From Onthophagus taurus (taxonomy: Eukaryota; Arthropoda; Insecta; Coleoptera; Scarabaeidae), in NCBI RefSeq assembly GCF_036711975.1, contig NC_091972.1:28215001-28279000 (forward strand): a DNA stretch of 64,000 nt, given 5' to 3'. Below the pieces are notes generated by a model. It ran no database searches. It was not told the DNA's origin and saw only the letters and a program-made list of their open reading frames with translations. The position numbers and the translations under genes were made by a program. Positions within the stretch are counted from its first letter, which is position 1. Each line of letters starts with the position of its first letter. Positions 1,173-57,362 of the stretch are shown here, piece after piece.

Positions 1173-2822
1173 CAGGGTGGGCAAATTTGGGTGTTATTAT
1201 AGGCTATCTCAGAAACTATAAGAGATACGAAAAAAGTAAGTGCCATGTCTCGGTCTCTTTTTTCGACACTAATTCAATCTCGCAAACATCAAACCTCTAT
1301 TTTCTTTTGTTTTTAAGTTATAGCTAAAAAGTCAAATTTTCGTAATTTCAAAAAATGCTCATATTTCAATTATTTTTCAAATTATAGGAATGGGGTTGAT
1401 ACGTTCTTAAGGCACTTTTTTAAGTGGAATATACTGCCGTTGAAAAGTTTTAAATATACTTGATGATTTTTGAGATACAACACAAAGTTGTGTTTTTTTA
1501 AATACAAACTATACTTAATTATGATGTTAAAGAAAAGAGCATATTTTTAGCTTTCCAATGATGTATCGCATGTATGGTGTATTTGCAGAAAATAAGCGTT
1601 AATTTTCAATTCGAAAATAGTAAGCGCTAATGTTCAAAATTTTGATTATAGTAGGCGGGTCCGGACAGTAAATACTACCTAGTGGCTATAATATATGGTT
1701 TTGCGCGAATAAGACAGAATAAAGTTGGTTTTGTACAATTATTCAGGATAAGTTGGTTTTGTACCAACGGATAAAAACTTTGAATAGTTTATTTAAATTT
1801 CTCAGCATCTTATCCCTGAATTTGTTCAACAATAAAAAATGATTAGCAAGTAAAGTTTGTTTATTAAAAATATAAGAAATGTATTAATTAATGAATAATT
1901 AAATATGGACAACTTCAGGAACTAAAGAGTCATAAACTGTCATCTTTTTCTACTCAACTTACTAGTTGTAAGATTAGAACAGTTCGGTATCAATGAATGA
2001 AATTTCGGTAGTATTTTCCCAGTTTTCCCCAAACATAAGATGTAGAAGTTTTTTGATATCAGCAATCTTTTGTTTTAAAATTGGGTGAGATAGAGGAAAA
2101 TTAGGAATCATAAACTGGGAGCGGACTTTCCATTGAAACACCGTTTGAATGGGGATATGAAGGCTTATGTATCATCTTCAAAGGGAACTCCAATATATTC
2201 TGTATTTAATTTTATCGTTTTATTTAAAGATAATGCGGAACTTCTTAAACGGGAAACTGGTTTCGCAAAATTCATGAATGAAATGACAAGTAAACTCACG
2301 TTGCTATAGCAACTAAGTAGTATGTAGCGTTTTCCTCGCCTACTATAATTAAAAATTTGAATTTAAATCTTTAATATTTAAAAAATTGAAAAATAACGCT
2401 TATTTTCCGCAGAAACATCATGCGTGTGATACATCATTGGAAAGCTAAAAATATGCTCTTTTCAGTAACATCATAATAAAGTATAGTTTTTATTTAAAAA
2501 AATACAACTTTATGTTATATCTCAAAAATTATCAGCTATGTTAAAAATTTTTCAACGGCAGTATATTCTACTCAAAAAAGTGTCTTAAGAATGCATTAAA
2601 CCCATTTCTCTAATTTCAAAAATAAATGAAATATGAGCATTTTTTGAAATCACTAAAATTTGACTTTTTGGCTATAACTTAAAAACAAAAGAAGATAGAG
2701 ATTTGGTCTTTACGGGATTGGATTAGTCTCGGAAAAAGAGACCGGGACATAGCACCTAGTTTTTTTGTATCTCTTATAGTTTCTGACATAGCCTATAATA
2801 ACACCCACATTTGCCCACCCTG
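1173..2822. mobile_element. Foldback element with about 500-bp inverted repeats, TA flanks
   Basis: CAGGGTGGGCAAATTTGGG at the left end is matched by its reverse complement at the right end, and both ends are flanked by TA (1171-1172 and 2823-2824). The arms, roughly 1173-1690 and 2330-2822, are near-perfect inverted copies around a unique centre of about 640 bp. There is no coding region. TA target duplication and a CAGGG terminus fit a non-autonomous Tc1/mariner-type foldback. A truncated second copy lies at 24265-24752. Confidence 0.8.
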
Positions 2823-2826
2823 TACA

Positions 2827-3545
2827 CCATATCTCAAAAATTACTCATCCCATCTTCTTGAAATTTGAAACACATATAAATAGTGAAGTTGTTTTCTATT
2901 TGAAACTAAAAAATTATATGAATTATTAAAAGAAAGTGCTTTTTTGTTGAATAATTCATCAATGAATTAGTATTTGAATTTAAATTTTTTCATTTATGAA
3001 TGTTAGAAACAATTTATATGTATTCCCAAATAATTCTAACCACTGTAACGAACCCTAGACTGTTCAAAGCGAAGCAACCCGCGCCGTAACCTTCCCTAAG
3101 GCAATAGCTATATGCCGTCCATTTTTTAATTTTGAATATTGTGAACATATATTTTTACAATATATAACATGAGTAAGTGTAGTGAACAAAATGTTTGAAA
3201 TTAATTACGTCTTAATGAAAAAAATGTTGAAAACGCACTTATTTTTGCGAGTCTAAATGTATCTCCTCCCTTAAGAAATGAAGTACGGACTAAGTTCTAG
3301 TGTTTATATAAAGGACAATTTACAGTGCAGAAAGTGAATAGTAAAATTTATGCTTAAATAGATAATAATGGAAAAACGAAAGTCCACTGAGGGTTCCGAT
3401 CCTCTTAGGTGGCTCGGACGTGTTGTAAATAAGCATACGCGTTTCATGATAGTGATTAATACATTAATAGTGAAAATTAAAACGTCTTCGTGATTATTGC
3501 ATGAGAGCCCAAGAGCACGAGCTGATGTGTCTTGTTCTGGCTCTT
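2827..3545. other. Unassigned AT-rich spacer
   Basis: No open frame with recognisable similarity is visible. A short GC-richer patch around 3380-3430 (GGTTCCGATCC) recalls a pol III B-box but has no matching A-box, so it is not called as a SINE. Confidence 0.5.
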
Positions 3546-3549
3546 GATA

Positions 3550-4650
3550 AATGCGCTTCAACGACTAATGCAGATTACATTAAATTTAGCTGAAAATAAT
3601 ATGGCTTTCAGAAGATCTTCTGATAAATTATTTACCTCAAATAATGGGAAATTTCTAAGGATCGTAGAATTATTAGCAAAGTTTGACCCTGTCATGGAGG
3701 AGCATATTAAATAAGCAATAAATAAATATACAAAATGAATTGATAGAATTAATGGCATTGCAAATTAAATCCACAATATTATCCCACGTAAAGAATTCAA
3801 AATATGTATTTTGCAATCATAGCTGACTGTACGCCTGATATAAGCAGATATGAGCAACTCTCCCAAACATTAAGGTACACTGACATAACAGAGGACAAAA
3901 ATTAAGAATCCCGAATCGAAAGCGTTAAGGTGGTTAGATAACAACTTCATGACGTCCATGATGCTTTAGTGTCTTTGGCTGAAGATACGATCCTACGACA
4001 TCACACGAAGTGACAACACTTGCAACTTTAACTTTACAATTTCTCTTGTAACACGGTACTATGTTCTTTTTTAAATCAATGTTGTATGCAAAGCAAGTCA
4101 ATTACTCAATATCGACTTCGTTCATTTTACAGATATACTTAAAAAACATTGTTCGTATTTGGAAAATTAGCAACAAATAGGTTTCGAACAAGCTTTTATA
4201 ACAGCAACTGAACTAGCGTCAGAACTAAATGTACAGCCAACTTTTAAACTCCAAAAGCCAACCGGGCGAAGAGGCTCGTGATGAATCAATAAATGACCCC
4301 AAAAAATATTTGAAGTACAATTCTTAATAATCTCTTAAACATGGTACTTATGTCTACAAACATTTTGGCATTTTTTGTTTGACATAAAAGAAAATCAAAA
4401 TAAAGAACAACTGTTGACTCATGGTTCTGCGCTGCAAAACAAAACTAACATTCAACTCTAAATCACATATTAATGGAGACTTATTGTGCAACGAAATCTT
4501 GAGTCTGCAACATTACCTGAAAGACAACCCCTATCAAATTTTATTGAATTTGATCAAAAAGCACCTGGTGTTGACTAAGAGTTGTTTCCTAACACCTGGA
4601 TAACTCTGCGTATTCTGCTAACAACACCAGTAACAGTTGTAACTGGATAA
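3550..4650 (+). pseudogene. ZMYM1-like (DUF4371) hAT transposase, decayed
   Basis: Fragments appear in family order across three frames. AFRRSSDKLFTSNNGKFL and ELLAKFDPVMEEHIK lie at about 3600-3714. QNELIELMALQIKSTILSHV follows at about 3735-3795, then DCTPDISRYEQLSQTLRY at about 3825-3880. FITATELASELNVQPTFKLQ is at about 4190-4250, and a C-terminal FPNTWITLRILLTTPVTV at about 4590-4640. This is the DUF4371 plus hAT C-terminal layout of zinc-finger MYM-type-1-like proteins, an insect-wide transposon family. Many stops and shifts make it non-functional. It ends just before the expected ERSFSTLK motif. Confidence 0.75.
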
Positions 4651-51359: not shown

Positions 51360-52612
51360 CAGTTAAGGAAAAAAAACAAAGTGCTTGTTCAAAAAAAAGT
51401 TAAAGAAGAGAAAAGGAAAAAAAAATGAGACAACACAACAAATCACCTTAGTTATTCAAAAACAAAAATAAATGCAATTCACAAAGAATGCCTTATCAAA
51501 AGCTATCAAAGTTAAACAAAATCTACTTTTAGATGCAACAAGCAGGGTGTAAATTTCAAGCGCGAAAATCTAAAAACACCTTTACAAACCTAAAAACCTT
51601 TTACAGTTTGATCACCCAAACAAGATGGCGGAATCTTTCAACAACTTCTTTGCCTCTGTTGCAAGCAATCTTGTGTCCAAAATAAATAATAACTCACCAG
51701 CTGATCTGGGTAACATACCTAAAAAGTGAACTTTTTAATATTGTTAATATTATTACACAGTTTTAAAGACAAACGGAGCTACGGTTATGATGAAACCCCA
51801 ATAAAAATAATTAAAGAAAGTATTTTATATATTTTAGCTCTTTTACGCTCTATTGTGAACAACTGCCTTGCACATGGAATATTTCCAAACTCACTGAAAC
51901 ACTCAATTATAACACCCATTTACAAAAAAGGTGACATATTGGTACCTGGTAGCTATAGATCAATTAGTATGCTCCCTTGTCTATACAAGATTATCGAGAA
52001 TGTTATTTACGTACGCTTTTTGGGGTATACAAAAGGTAATTCTTTACTCAGTGAAAGACAGAATGGGTTCGTTGAACTTTTTACTGATATTCTAGATGCC
52101 TACGAAAAAAATGAACACGTTTGTACTATAAGCTTGAATCTGTCTAAGGCTTTTGATTGTATAGATAAATAATTGTTGGTGGCCAAACTTGAGCGTTACG
52201 AGTTTAGAGGTCCTGCAAAACACATAATTACTTTGTATTTAAATAATAGATCACATACGACGAAAGTTATAAGTTACGAAGATGCTCCAGTAATATCAAC
52301 TACGAAGTATACAAGGTATGGAGTCTCACAGGGTAGTATACTGAGTCCTCTACTTTTCGTCATTTTTATTAATGACCTACTATTACACGACTTGAATTGT
52401 TATTTCACAAGTTATACAGACGATACTACCGTATCAGTCACCAGTTCAACTTTAAACGAAATGATGGATGAAGCTAGTAATACGTTGAATGCTCTAAAAA
52501 GTGGTTTGATACTAATAATCTAATAATGAACGAAGATAAAAGTGGGGTGATAGCCTTTGATAATAAATTGGTTAATAAACCATCTACAATCTATGATATT
52601 GAGGTACGACAT

Positions 52613-52640
52613 CACAGTGGTCCGAGCGGTAAGAAAACCC
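52613..52640 (+). repeat. Left Transib end: heptamer, 12-bp spacer, nonamer-like
   Basis: CACAGTG (52613-52619) equals the V(D)J recombination-signal heptamer. After exactly 12 bp comes AGAAAACCC (52632-52640), matching 7 of 9 positions of the consensus nonamer ACAAAAACC. Confidence 0.8.
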
Positions 52641-53716
52641 GATCGAAAATATTATTTTGGTGTTAGCAATTAGCTAGCTTTATGAAACTTGGCATGATTA
52701 TAAGACCAAAAGGATAATGTTGTGTCAAAATTTGAATTAAATTCTTCAACCGGAAGTAGTACTACGGAAGCAGTACTTTATTTAAATTCATACTCATTTT
52801 TTTTCATATAAATTAGGACTTTAAAGAAGAATATTACTATAAAATTTTGTGCAAAACATTAGACGTATATTACTTCACATTTTTTTGTGTAATTACGTGA
52901 TCGCAAATTCCTATCTAAATTGTTTTATAGAGGACCTATACCGGATGTCTCACGTAACTGGTTCGTTAGAACTTTTTTAGGTACCACTATTCGTAGCGGT
53001 TTGAAATTTTGACAACATGGGTTGTTCATTCGAAGCTTTCGATCTAAAATACTTTCAAGATGGCCGCCACTTCCGGTCTACCGGATGTAGACCACAACTT
53101 CGTTATTTTAAATGGAATGCTATAGTTTTTAATGCACCTTTTAATTATATTCGACAAAATAAGTTGACTTTGATAAAAGTTATTGGTACCTACCATTTTT
53201 CGTTTTCGAGTTATTTTGTTTTTAAGTTTTTCTTTGGCAAATTACTTTATGCTCTTTAAAACCTTATATCTCAGCCAACGTTCATTCAAAAAAGCTCTAA
53301 ATTGGCACGATTACTCTTGAGATGTTGACAAACAGATTGTCATTTGTTGTATTAAAGTATCTTATACAGGGTGGTCAAAAATTGAATTATCGTTTCTCCA
53401 TATTCAATGGTAAGAAAGTCGAAAATTTTAAATGGAACGCCCATATTTTTTTACCCTATCAGAAATGGAATTTGATAAAAATGTAGCAAAATTAATTGGC
53501 AGAATCAGTTGGTTAGATAGCTCAATTTTACTTAGCTTTTACTAAAAATCTTTTAAGAACTATTCGAGAATAAACTCATCGCTCTTAATTTGAAGTGATA
53601 TTGGAGACCATAATACGTAAGATTGATGCCTACTTATAGTAGAATTTTCCCATGATACTGAAATAGTCCACATACATTTCAAATTATTCGAGATAATATA
53701 AAATATTTTGTTATAT

Positions 53717-56026
53717 TCACCAACATAACAAAATTTTTCTCAATTTGTGTGAGTCTTCTTCATTTTCTAGGTCTTGTTCCTCTATATTTACTTCTTCTTC
53801 ACTTTCTTCATCATCATCATCTTCTTCTTTACCTTCCTCTTCTTCTAGAGATTTGTCCAGTATAAGTAAATTTTTCATGTCTTCATTCATATTTTTATAT
53901 CTTTCTGAACATTCTTTATAAAAGTTACTAATAAATGGATCGGAGCTCAGTAATAGTCTTTTAAATAAATCTTCATTTGTTTGAAGTCTACCACATTTTC
54001 TTGTGTGACACTCTCTAAATCTGCGTACTTGTTTGTTTTTTGCTTCTTGAGCCTCTTCAGAAAGCTCTCCAATGGGTAATAGCGACTCTTTAATTACTAC
54101 AGCACCATGAATTAAAATTTTGTGCACGCTAGTAGGCATGTAGTACCACCCATAAAGGTTAACATACTTCTCTGCGGTACTAAAGCAATATGCTTCAAAC
54201 TCATTTTCTTTTATGTTATACCCACTATTTATAATACGCAGAATAACTCCAAATCGCTGGATTAATTCCGCATCAATTCCTTCAATTAAATTCCATTAAT
54301 TAATTTCTATACAGTTACACTATAATCTAGCAACTTACCTGTAATATCTGCCGATAATTCCGGATTAGCAAAAAATCGTCGCGCAGTATTTCCATCATTC
54401 GATGTTCCATAGTTTTGAAATTTTTCTTGTATAGATCTTTTTCGATCCTCCACTTTATTTCTTTGTGCTTTGGGAATCTGAACATAAAACATCTTTAGGC
54501 ATATGTTACACATAAAGCTATGTATGATAAACTGTTTACCTTCCAAGTTTTAATTTCTAGCCTGTAGGCTATGTGAAGCAAACACTCAAAAAATCGAATG
54601 TAAGCGTGCAGAACTGACAGACCAAATTTAAAACCTTCTGGGTCTAACGTTCTTGCACGCAAATCATTAAGATTATTCATCTCTGAGATTTTTGCTTTAC
54701 ATATATAACATTTCATGCCAGATGACTCCATTAAGGAATTACAAACCTACAAAATAAACAAACAACTCAAATAAAGTTCTAAGAAAACAAAGTAGTTTAG
54801 AACCTTTCCATCAACTATCGTCAAATAAAGAGAAAAGTTTACAATTCCACAATTGAAATTGTATGGTTGAACTTTCTCTATTTGGTCCGAAATATACTTC
54901 TCTTCGCTTTTTATAATTTTATTATTTTCATGAACCCATTGCAGCCTAATTGGCCTACAAAACCGTATGGATGATGGTCGCGGATTCTTCCACACTATTT
55001 TCTTATTATTGTCTTCTAGTCGTAATGGAACTAGTGACGATAGAAATAGAGAGTCATCTTTTCCCTCAGAATTATTTTGATACTTTTGTTTGTAAGTAGC
55101 ATGACTTCCGCTACCATCAAACCCCCATTTACAATGTAACGTTAAATTACATTTTATTTCTGAACGCACGTTTGAACATTTCAATATTTTTTCACATGTG
55201 TTGTTCAACAAACTTTGCAAATCAATTTCGTAAACTGTTTCAGTAATTTTTATCCCTTCTGGGTATGCCTCTTTTTTGCATTTTAAAACGTCACAGTATG
55301 GGGGGTATAAGTCATATCCATGTCCAATAGCGGTCTCTCGAAGCTTTAAATATTGATTCTTAGTTAAATTAAGAGATATTATTAAGTTAAGAGCTTCCTC
55401 GGCAGTCAATCGAGTTTGCTCTGGTTTTTCCGATTTCCACATTGTTAACATTTTTTTTGCTCTGTTTGGAGTTGTTGTCGTTGCCTCCTTAAGCAAAGCA
55501 GCTTCAGCCGATTTCCCTTCTTCACGCAGTTTCATCGTTGTGGCAAATGATAGTTCTGCCGAAGTTACGGTCTTGCGCATTTGTTCTGTCCTTCTTCGTT
55601 TTACAATAACTGACGAAGATTCAAATTCTTTTTTGGTACGACCACGAAAACCTATTTTATGTTACAGCGAATATAGAATCATAGATCATACATTGTTTAA
55701 ATATATCATTGGTACTTACCAGAAGCACATTCAGCGGATGGTCGGTTTACAGTTCGAACACTTGGAGAAAAACTATTTTTTTTTTCAACCACTCGCTGTG
55801 TTTAGCGCGAAATTTTGTGTCGCTACGACCACAACTTTTCCAAAACCGATAATATGTACTAAAAAGCTGTTTTTCTACACACCGATGCAGGTTTTCGGTA
55901 TCCATGTTGTTAGTGGTTAAATAATAATTGTCTATCAATTTTAAAACAGTTTTTTTTTTCAATCATCGGCTGATTCCCACAAGATTTTATTCTGTCGTGA
56001 AGCGCTTCGCGTGTTATGCTCGACAT
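53717..56026 (-). CDS. RAG1-like Transib transposase, five exons
   Basis: Exons: 56026-55720, 55651-54804, 54746-54540, 54477-54339, 54279-53717. All introns are GT-AG with consistent phases, giving about 687 residues. Landmarks shared with the RAG1 core: HCKWGFDGSGSH (first D, about 55117), SLYLTIVDGK (second D, 54810-54812), CYICKAK (CxxC zinc pair), HAYIRFFECLLHIAYRLE, GNTARRFFANPE, SVHKILIHG (H-x4-H pair), and SEEAQEAKNKQVRRFRE (catalytic E, about 54045). An acidic tail follows. Only two 10-A runs in exon 1 (about 55950-55959 and 55776-55785) break frame, by plus one and minus one. The protein cuts at CACAGTG ends and moves the element; whether it is expressed is not known. Confidence 0.88.
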
Positions 56027-56047
56027 GTTGCAAGTATTTAGCGAAAT

Positions 56048-56202
56048 CTAACGTAAACTAACGCTAACTAAAGCTAATAAAAACTAACAAAAATCAACAA
56101 GCAACGATAACTAACAGTAACTAACAATAACTAACGATAACTAACAATAACTAACGATAACTAACGATAACTAACAATAACTGACAATAACTAACAATAA
56201 TA
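56048..56202 (-). repeat. Tandem 10-bp repeat upstream of the transposase start
   Basis: Ten regular units of CTAACAATAA/CTAACGATAA fill 56101-56200, with degenerate units back to 56048. On the coding strand they read TTATTGTTAG and end about 20 nt before the ATG at 56026, so they lie in the 5' UTR or core promoter. Confidence 0.85.
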
Positions 56203-57010
56203 ATCACCAACAATCCCTGCTTAGTACAAAACACTCGATTTACTTAAACCACAGATTTGATAATTAGGTTTGTTATTACTGAATGAAGACGTTACCCGTA
56301 GCAACCGGTGGACTCATGGAAGATTTGATTTTAAACGTTTTTATAAATTTAATTTTTTAATTGAAATAATAAAGGAAACTCAGTCAAATAAAATCAGGTA
56401 ACAAAATAATTAAAATGTAATTATTATTTTTATTTTTCTAAATTTTATTACATTAATGAAGAATTTAATTCAAATTTGAACATTTTTCTTAATCGTAGCA
56501 GTAAAATTAGAAGTAGAACTACTAAATAGAGTAAACTACTAAATAAATTTTTACACTTAAAATAAAAAAACACTTACGGTACTTGCGGTATAACCGGAAG
56601 AGTGGTGAAAGTGCATTTCAAATGTGTTTAGAAAATGCGAATAATATAATATAAAAACCAAAACATAGCAACAAAATAACGAAAATCATAACAAGGATAA
56701 ATAAGATCCACAATTATGTGGTAAGTAATCTTTGACTGCCAATTTTTTGGTTAAGGCGCACGTTGGCGCAAGACACAATATTTTCAAGTAGTGATATACC
56801 ATCTTGTTTTGTTTTCTAAAGTTGTGTCGTTTTCTAAAAAATTTCCTTATACAAAATAAGGTAATTGTAATAGCAATTTATTTCGCGCAGTAGCTATTAT
56901 AAAACACCAAAGACTTCATAAACTTCACTAAGAGTCTATTAATAGTTAAAATATATGTAACATTTAAAAAAACAACACTATAAAATTTTTTTTTTAATTG
57001 ATTTTCGATC

Positions 57011-57038
57011 GGGTTTTGAGTGTTTTCGGACCACTGTG
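57011..57038 (-). repeat. Right Transib end: heptamer, 12-bp spacer, nonamer-like
   Basis: On the minus strand CACAGTG (57038-57032), a 12-bp spacer, and TCAAAACCC (57019-57011), matching 7 of 9 consensus nonamer positions. Confidence 0.8.
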
Positions 57039-57362
57039 ACAGGAGATCAAGATTTTGGGTGTTCATCTTGATAGTTCTATGAAGTTTAAGTGTCACATGG
57101 AACAACTCTGTTATAAGCTATCAAAATCTATATTTGGTCTTAGAGTGATTAAAAATACAACTAACAAAAAGATTGCCAAGATTTTTTATTCTAGTAACAT
57201 CGAATCACATTTAAGTTATTGAATAATTACGTGGGGAGCATCTGTACAGTTCGGTAATGTCTGTAAACTTCAGAAAAAAGCGATAAGAGCCTGCCTAAAC
57301 ATAGGTTAAATTTATATGAAAAAGGTCCCTTGTATTCATGTGTGAAAATCTGAAATAACATG

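Follow-up and report, generated by a model that had tools for sequence, protein, structure and literature searches.

A Transib element at positions 52613..57038 (minus strand) of a 64,000-nucleotide stretch of Onthophagus taurus DNA, referred to here as the window, very probably carries ends composed of two half-sites each, and the A/C-rich block found 12 bp from the terminal heptamer would represent the outer edge of the inner half-site rather than a conserved nonamer. The element belongs to what we call family A, and the Transib group as a whole is a known relative of the recombinase of vertebrate antibody genes. The original prediction had read both ends as recombination signal sequences (RSSs) with 12-bp spacers, and saw in this a sharper resemblance that would bear on the origin of the signal and of the 12/23 rule. 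We compared the two ends with each other, with further copies of family A and with ends from six other Transib families in the genome, in which an A-rich block recurs at 22–23 bp instead.

Two half-sites at each end of the window element

The terminal inverted repeats are 38 bp long (left, 52613..52650, plus strand; right, 57001..57038, minus strand) and start with the heptamer CACAGTG (52613..52619, plus strand; 57032..57038, minus strand). Exactly 12 bp further inward lie the nonamer-like blocks AGAAAACCC at the left end (52632..52640, plus strand) and TCAAAACCC at the right end (57011..57019, minus strand), each agreeing with ACAAAAACC at 7 of 9 positions; the coordinates, the distance and the scores of the original prediction are all correct. 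The left end can be written as CACAGTGGTCCGA-GCGGTAAG-AAAACCCGATCGAAAAT and the right one, likewise from the outside inward, as CACAGTGGTCCGA-AAACACTC-AAAACCCGATCGAAAAT. That is, the two ends are identical at positions 1–13 (heptamer plus GTCCGA, the outer half-site) and 22–38 (the inner half-site), 13 and 17 bp, respectively, and agree at none of the eight positions 14–21. The nonamer-like block occupies positions 20–28 and includes two unshared positions, its first two bases, while the inner block AAAACCCGATCGAAAAT common to both ends (52634..52650, plus strand; 57001..57017, minus strand) runs 10 bp further inward and overlaps the 12-bp as well as the 23-bp register. Because identity is present at 1–13 and 22–38 and absent at 14–21, the apparent nonamer is best regarded as the outer margin of the 17 bp that the ends share. 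Of the features of a 12-spacer RSS, both ends have the CACAGTG heptamer. The agreement with ACAAAAACC at 12 bp is 7/9 at either end, but across the six other families it does not exceed background. A 12/23 pairing is not seen, the layout being the same at both ends.

Scores to ACAAAAACC reach their joint peak at 12 bp (7 + 7 for the two ends), with 7 + 6 at 11 bp and 5 + 6 at 23 bp. Against the AT-rich background of the window, a score of at least 7/9 is expected by chance in 0.25% of cases per end at exactly 12 bp, in 1.7% for any of 12±1 or 23±1 bp and in 6.4% for any spacer of 8–30 bp; once AAAA is given in place, 8.7% of cases reach 7/9. The two ends are not independent observations, since they are inverted repeats sharing AAAACCC. 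It is therefore somewhat probable that we are dealing with a chance likeness, in which a real A-rich inner half-site happens to score 7/9 at 12 bp, and this would be compatible with the half-site reading. Chance is opposed by shuffling of family A's own end sequence, which gives a low P value for 11–13 bp (see below), and by the 17-bp block common to both ends, which must at least be a real end element.

Comparison with six other Transib families

The genome (~291 Mb) contains at least 141 Transib transposase matches from many families, many of them with open frames of 500–758 amino acids and, among the matches listed, several with 650–758. Ten ends of seven families entered the comparison, two from family A and eight from six others. 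Families B (locus L086) and C (L087) contributed both ends, with the target duplications CGACG and CGGCG, respectively. One end each came from families D (L088, flank CGTCG), E (L089, flank CGACG), H (flank CGGTG) and F (L092, end at position 345, minus strand, flank TGCCG). For B and C, candidate ends were ranked by their mutual similarity and by the target duplication, the latter being the sole basis for B; for D and E, the end was placed at the point where DNA matches to other copies break off. For H and F, ends were picked from five and seven CAC candidates, respectively, by heptamer and CG-rich flank; bias is possible in these two cases because the A blocks were in view. In DNA searches, other copies of H start at 9, 10 and 5 (expected 10), those of F at 10, 12, 14 and 17 (expected 16), with three more beginning later, and those of C at 11, 6, 6 and 10 (expected 11), with two more beginning later. 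The left end of D and the right end of E could not be assigned, and no end was recognised in L090 and L093. A candidate family I was rejected as a separate family, as it is the same as family H.

At 12 bp, the ends of family A score 7 + 7, whereas the eight ends of the six other families score 2–4 of 9 (Figures given as matches to ACAAAAACC). At 22 or 23 bp, the scores are 7 and 7 for C, 8 for H, 6 each for D and E, 5 + 6 for A, 4 + 4 for B and 4 for F. The family mean calculated without A is 3.00 at 12 bp as compared to 2.97 in shuffled sequences (P = 0.50). At 22 bp it is 5.17, and at 23 bp 4.67, values attained in 0 of 2000 shuffles each. Leaving out one family at a time, with H and F included, gave P ≤ 0.0003 for 22–24 bp and 0.45–0.77 for 11–13 bp. 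Judged by these end sequences, an A-rich block is recurrent at 22–23 bp across the Transib families read here, near the published Transib pattern, for which parts of PMC8355894 describe symmetric ends with 20–22-bp spacers. The idea of a sharper RSS resemblance bearing on the 12/23 rule is not supported by this comparison, the six other families being at background at 12 bp and enriched at 22–23 bp. As a separate observation, family F has a nonamer-like sequence, ACAAAAATC, scoring 8/9 at 29 bp instead of 22–23 bp.

Spacing within family A and the case for a nonamer

An exact search with the 12-bp pattern found 79 family A ends in the genome, the two of the window included. By coincidence, 79 is also the number of distinct end sequences (39 left, 40 right) in a set that was partly gathered by this pattern and is thus biased to 12 bp; of these, 73 have the 12-bp spacing, spacings of 15, 10, 13 and 6 bp occur once each, and two lack an end. 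The copies L049, L031, L015 and L050, with one-end spacers of 10, 6, 13 and 15 bp, respectively, all lie in perfect target duplications, and their spacer change may post-date insertion. Changes relative to the window were counted in 44 5' ends and 43 3' ends, the window included and ends with insertions or deletions excluded. The 5' ends differ at 3/308 (positions 1–7), 11/528 (8–19), 3/396 (20–28), 2/440 (29–38) and 10/968 (39–60) bases, the 3' ends at 1/301, 8/516, 4/387, 15/430 and 94/946 for the same intervals, the inner 3' positions including an effect of poly-A length. Positions 20–28 are better kept than 29–38 at the 3' ends and not at the 5' ends, and they are not clearly unlike the heptamer. 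In a logo of the copies, which the original prediction had proposed as a check, positions 20–28 are hardly conserved above their neighbours; such a within-family logo decides little about selection because the copies are nearly identical.

A number of observations weigh against the half-site reading. When family A's own end sequence is shuffled, the score at 11–13 bp has P = 0.0027, and the score at 22–24 bp is by itself not significant (P = 0.11). Families B and F are without a block at 22–23 bp (4 of 9). Among 30 loci that were seeded with internal element sequence, without using the ends and including that of the window, 28 have the 12-bp spacing at the 5' end, although such constancy would also follow from recent common descent alone. 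The other two ends, at C11:1295862 and C11:1344265, have 15 bp and common flanks and may represent one duplicated insertion. Positions 20–28 are somewhat better kept than 8–19 at both ends. Protein binding of the inner block is itself putative. Moreover, parts of PMC8355894, drawing on its reference 8, report 12/23 ends for Transib5 and four Anopheles elements.

Finally, a further family of this genome has an A block exactly 12 bp from its heptamer, reading CACAGTGGGGCAACGCCGG followed by AAAAAATCC or AAAAAAATC. This end, one end having been read, was found by searching for 12 bp: the pattern CGNCG + CACNNTG + 12 bp + AAAA block has 41 matches, 40 in family A and one other, and none in the reversed control. 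It is present at C2:29596331 and C3:2900177 with two differences between them, and the latter lies ~1 kb upstream of a Transib transposase match (C3:2901206). The 13-bp start of this family occurs exactly at five places (one in the reversed control), of which only the two just named agree with the 28-bp block when up to 3 mismatches are allowed. The further family could be a 12/23 element.

These points bear foremost on the possibility that family A is a 12/12 transposon with a real nonamer-type element at 12 bp, read by an N-terminal region equivalent to the nonamer-binding domain (NBD) of RAG1. The 7/9 score at exactly 12 bp at both ends, the family-only shuffle and the single end of the further family speak in its favour, as do the GRP-type motif in the N-terminus of three other families, GRT at this place in the window transposase, and the NBD equivalent with GRP that parts of PMC9435367, which also describe both symmetric and asymmetric ends, report for Transibs. 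We nevertheless consider it improbable, given that the ends disagree at two of the nine positions, that the shared block is 10 bp longer on its inner side and that the six other families are at background at 12 bp; the 6–15-bp spacers within perfect duplications point the same way, though these may have arisen after insertion. Equally improbable is a dual layout with both blocks on each end and either register usable, for which the 7/7 and 5/6 scores at 12 and 23 bp and the one 17-bp block spanning both registers would argue, but to which the non-significant 22–24-bp score of family A is opposed. We retain the half-site reading, with slightly lowered confidence since the ends of H and F were selected while their A blocks were visible. 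Taken as a whole, the original prediction was right about a Transib element with a heptamer and an A/C block at 12 bp; its reading as a 12-spacer RSS is not supported, with the one end of the further family lending it partial support.

The element, its transposase and known systems

The element is 4,426 bp long and has inverted ends at both borders. Its assignment to Transib, as originally proposed, is borne out by inverted ends starting with CACNNTG, by a Transib-type DDE transposase matching that of HzTransib (6pqn) and by the family ends in the genome. It is flanked on the left by an interrupted reverse transcriptase of a long interspersed nuclear element (LINE; 52400..52612, plus strand) and on the right by the continuation of the same LINE (57039..57300, plus strand). 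The empty site GTACGACAGGA is uninterrupted in all eight of its genomic matches, five of them exact over 31 bp and three with one or two mismatches, and the reversed-sequence control had no match. The window element is a Transib cut-and-paste DNA transposon inserted in a LINE. It has no clean 5-bp target duplication, as GACAT on the left (52608–52612) and ACAGG on the right (57039–57043) agree at 0 of 5 positions; as compared to a plain CGACA duplication, the left flank (...CGACAT) has an extra T and the right flank (ACAGG...) is without CG. In 48 stretches, 47 around family A ends plus the window, 39 gave a clean end pair by substitutions alone and nine were dropped. The duplication is perfect in 33 of the 39, agrees at 4 of 5 positions in five and at none in the window copy only. 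The consensus is CGNCG, so that the CG-rich 5-bp duplication of Transibs is found at the level of the family.

Comparison of the 47 stretches revealed no match of more than 60 bp to element positions 1447–4035 in 45 of them, among these L009, which was cut on the wrong side and has one end only. This interval holds most of the transposase gene, although the beginning of its last exon falls within the left part that the copies retain. Two stretches deviate, L013, extending to 1609, and L028, with 1563–2081 at 77%. Most sampled two-ended copies are deletion derivatives of ~2 kb, and among the copies sampled only that of the window has most of the transposase gene. A protein search, in which 140 of 489 candidates were scored, gave as the next family A match among those listed C7:21702092 (85% identity, five stops), then C3:8716795–8717427 in two pieces (77% and 90%, one stop), then matches of at most 74%. 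Judging from these alignments, no gene-bearing copy of family A among the matches listed is better preserved than that of the window; autonomous Transibs usually number one or a few copies, according to parts of PMC4411706. Around 56772 (element position 4160), the window copy is without 200–300 bp that are present in most sampled copies.

The transposase gene lies on the minus strand and has four putative introns, all GT...AG as read by eye. Its N-terminal part (55652..56026, minus strand) includes a putative intron (55719–55652) and reads in two frames, switching at poly-A runs at 55960–55947 and 55787–55773; given this broken frame, the transposase of the window copy may be inactive as it stands. 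The original prediction had mentioned neither these frame changes nor the missing target duplication nor the identity of the two ends up to position 38. The following exon (54804..55651) carries GRT at the place of the GRP of other families and the first two catalytic Asp residues (55118–55116 and 54812–54810). Two exons with putative splice sites come next, 54540..54746 with the CxxC motif (CYIC, 54710–54699) and 54339..54477. The last exon (53717..54279) contains the catalytic Glu (54046–54044), H-x4-H (HKILIH, 54124–54107) and an acidic tail, all exons being on the minus strand. Just upstream of the transposase start, at 56060–56190, units resembling ACTAACAATA/ACTAACGATA are repeated in short tandem array, as seen by eye.

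The RAG1 landmarks named in the original prediction are all present. Matches to HzTransib 6pqn were obtained for a 277-amino-acid open reading frame (ORF; E = 5.3e-37), the last exon (1.7e-36) and the CxxC exon (2.4e-15), and the three acidic residues are in register with D126, D225 and E436 of HzTransib, numbered as in parts of PMC6941560 with the chain index converted by arithmetic. The last exon scores 18.1 bits with Pfam RAG1, below the cut-off of 25, while a relative, P0022, lies above it with 32.1 bits. The 6pqn profile match begins only after the GRP region. GRP itself is found upstream of the first catalytic Asp in three of four other families with an ORF read (the frame of L089 begins later) and in 24 of 54 database relatives having more than 120 amino acids before KWG. 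A profile search for a match in the NBD of solved RAG1 gave a collinear and not significant result (best 7.7 bits, i-Evalue 15). No RAG2-like match was obtained among the seven ORFs scanned, of which five belong to the element. In viral contigs searched for relatives, none of 149 pattern stretches was confirmed.

In the mechanism that we propose, the RAG1-like catalytic core would cut at the heptamer and insert the element into a 5-bp target rich in CG. The inner half-site would be contacted by the N-terminal region of GRP type (NBD-equivalent) or by a different DNA-binding portion of the protein, this binding being putative, and the A/C block at 12 bp would form the outer edge of that half-site in family A.

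HzTransib of Helicoverpa zea (6pqn and five related PDB entries) resembles the window element in the DDE residues in register, CxxC, H-x4-H and 5-bp duplications (parts of PMC1852546, for Hztransib), but its ends are reported in parts of PMC8289069 to resemble the nonamer little or not at all, in contrast to 7/9 in family A. RAGL/ProtoRAG elements likewise have CAC ends, 5-bp duplications and a RAG1-like core (parts of PMC7204232), and differ by carrying a RAG2-like gene, for which the five element ORFs scanned gave no match. The vertebrate 12-RSS/RAG1 system has CACAGTG, an A-rich block 12 bp on and the catalytic residues in common with family A, whose shared block, however, extends past the nonamer, for whose nonamer-like block a function would be putative, and in whose scanned ORFs no RAG2 was found. 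Drosophila Transib5 and Anopheles Transib2/N1-N3 have a heptamer and a nonamer-like block at 12 or 23 bp, and are 12/23 asymmetric, whereas the two ends of family A are laid out alike. These published ends presumably go back to Kapitonov and Jurka in 2005.

Family A is an ordinary Transib family and mostly an ordinary find. The comparison argues against a tempting misreading, since the RSS-like A-rich block recurs at 22–23 bp, not at 12 bp, in the Transib families read in this one genome. There is a slim chance that family A is a working 12/12 Transib whose NBD-equivalent region reads the 12-bp block, next to sister families at 22–23 bp; if this were true, the two registers of the later 12/23 rule would occur side by side in one genome, each in a transposon of its own. 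With its wealth of Transib matches and at least two families with a 12-bp block, this genome represents a natural panel for the origin of spacer length.

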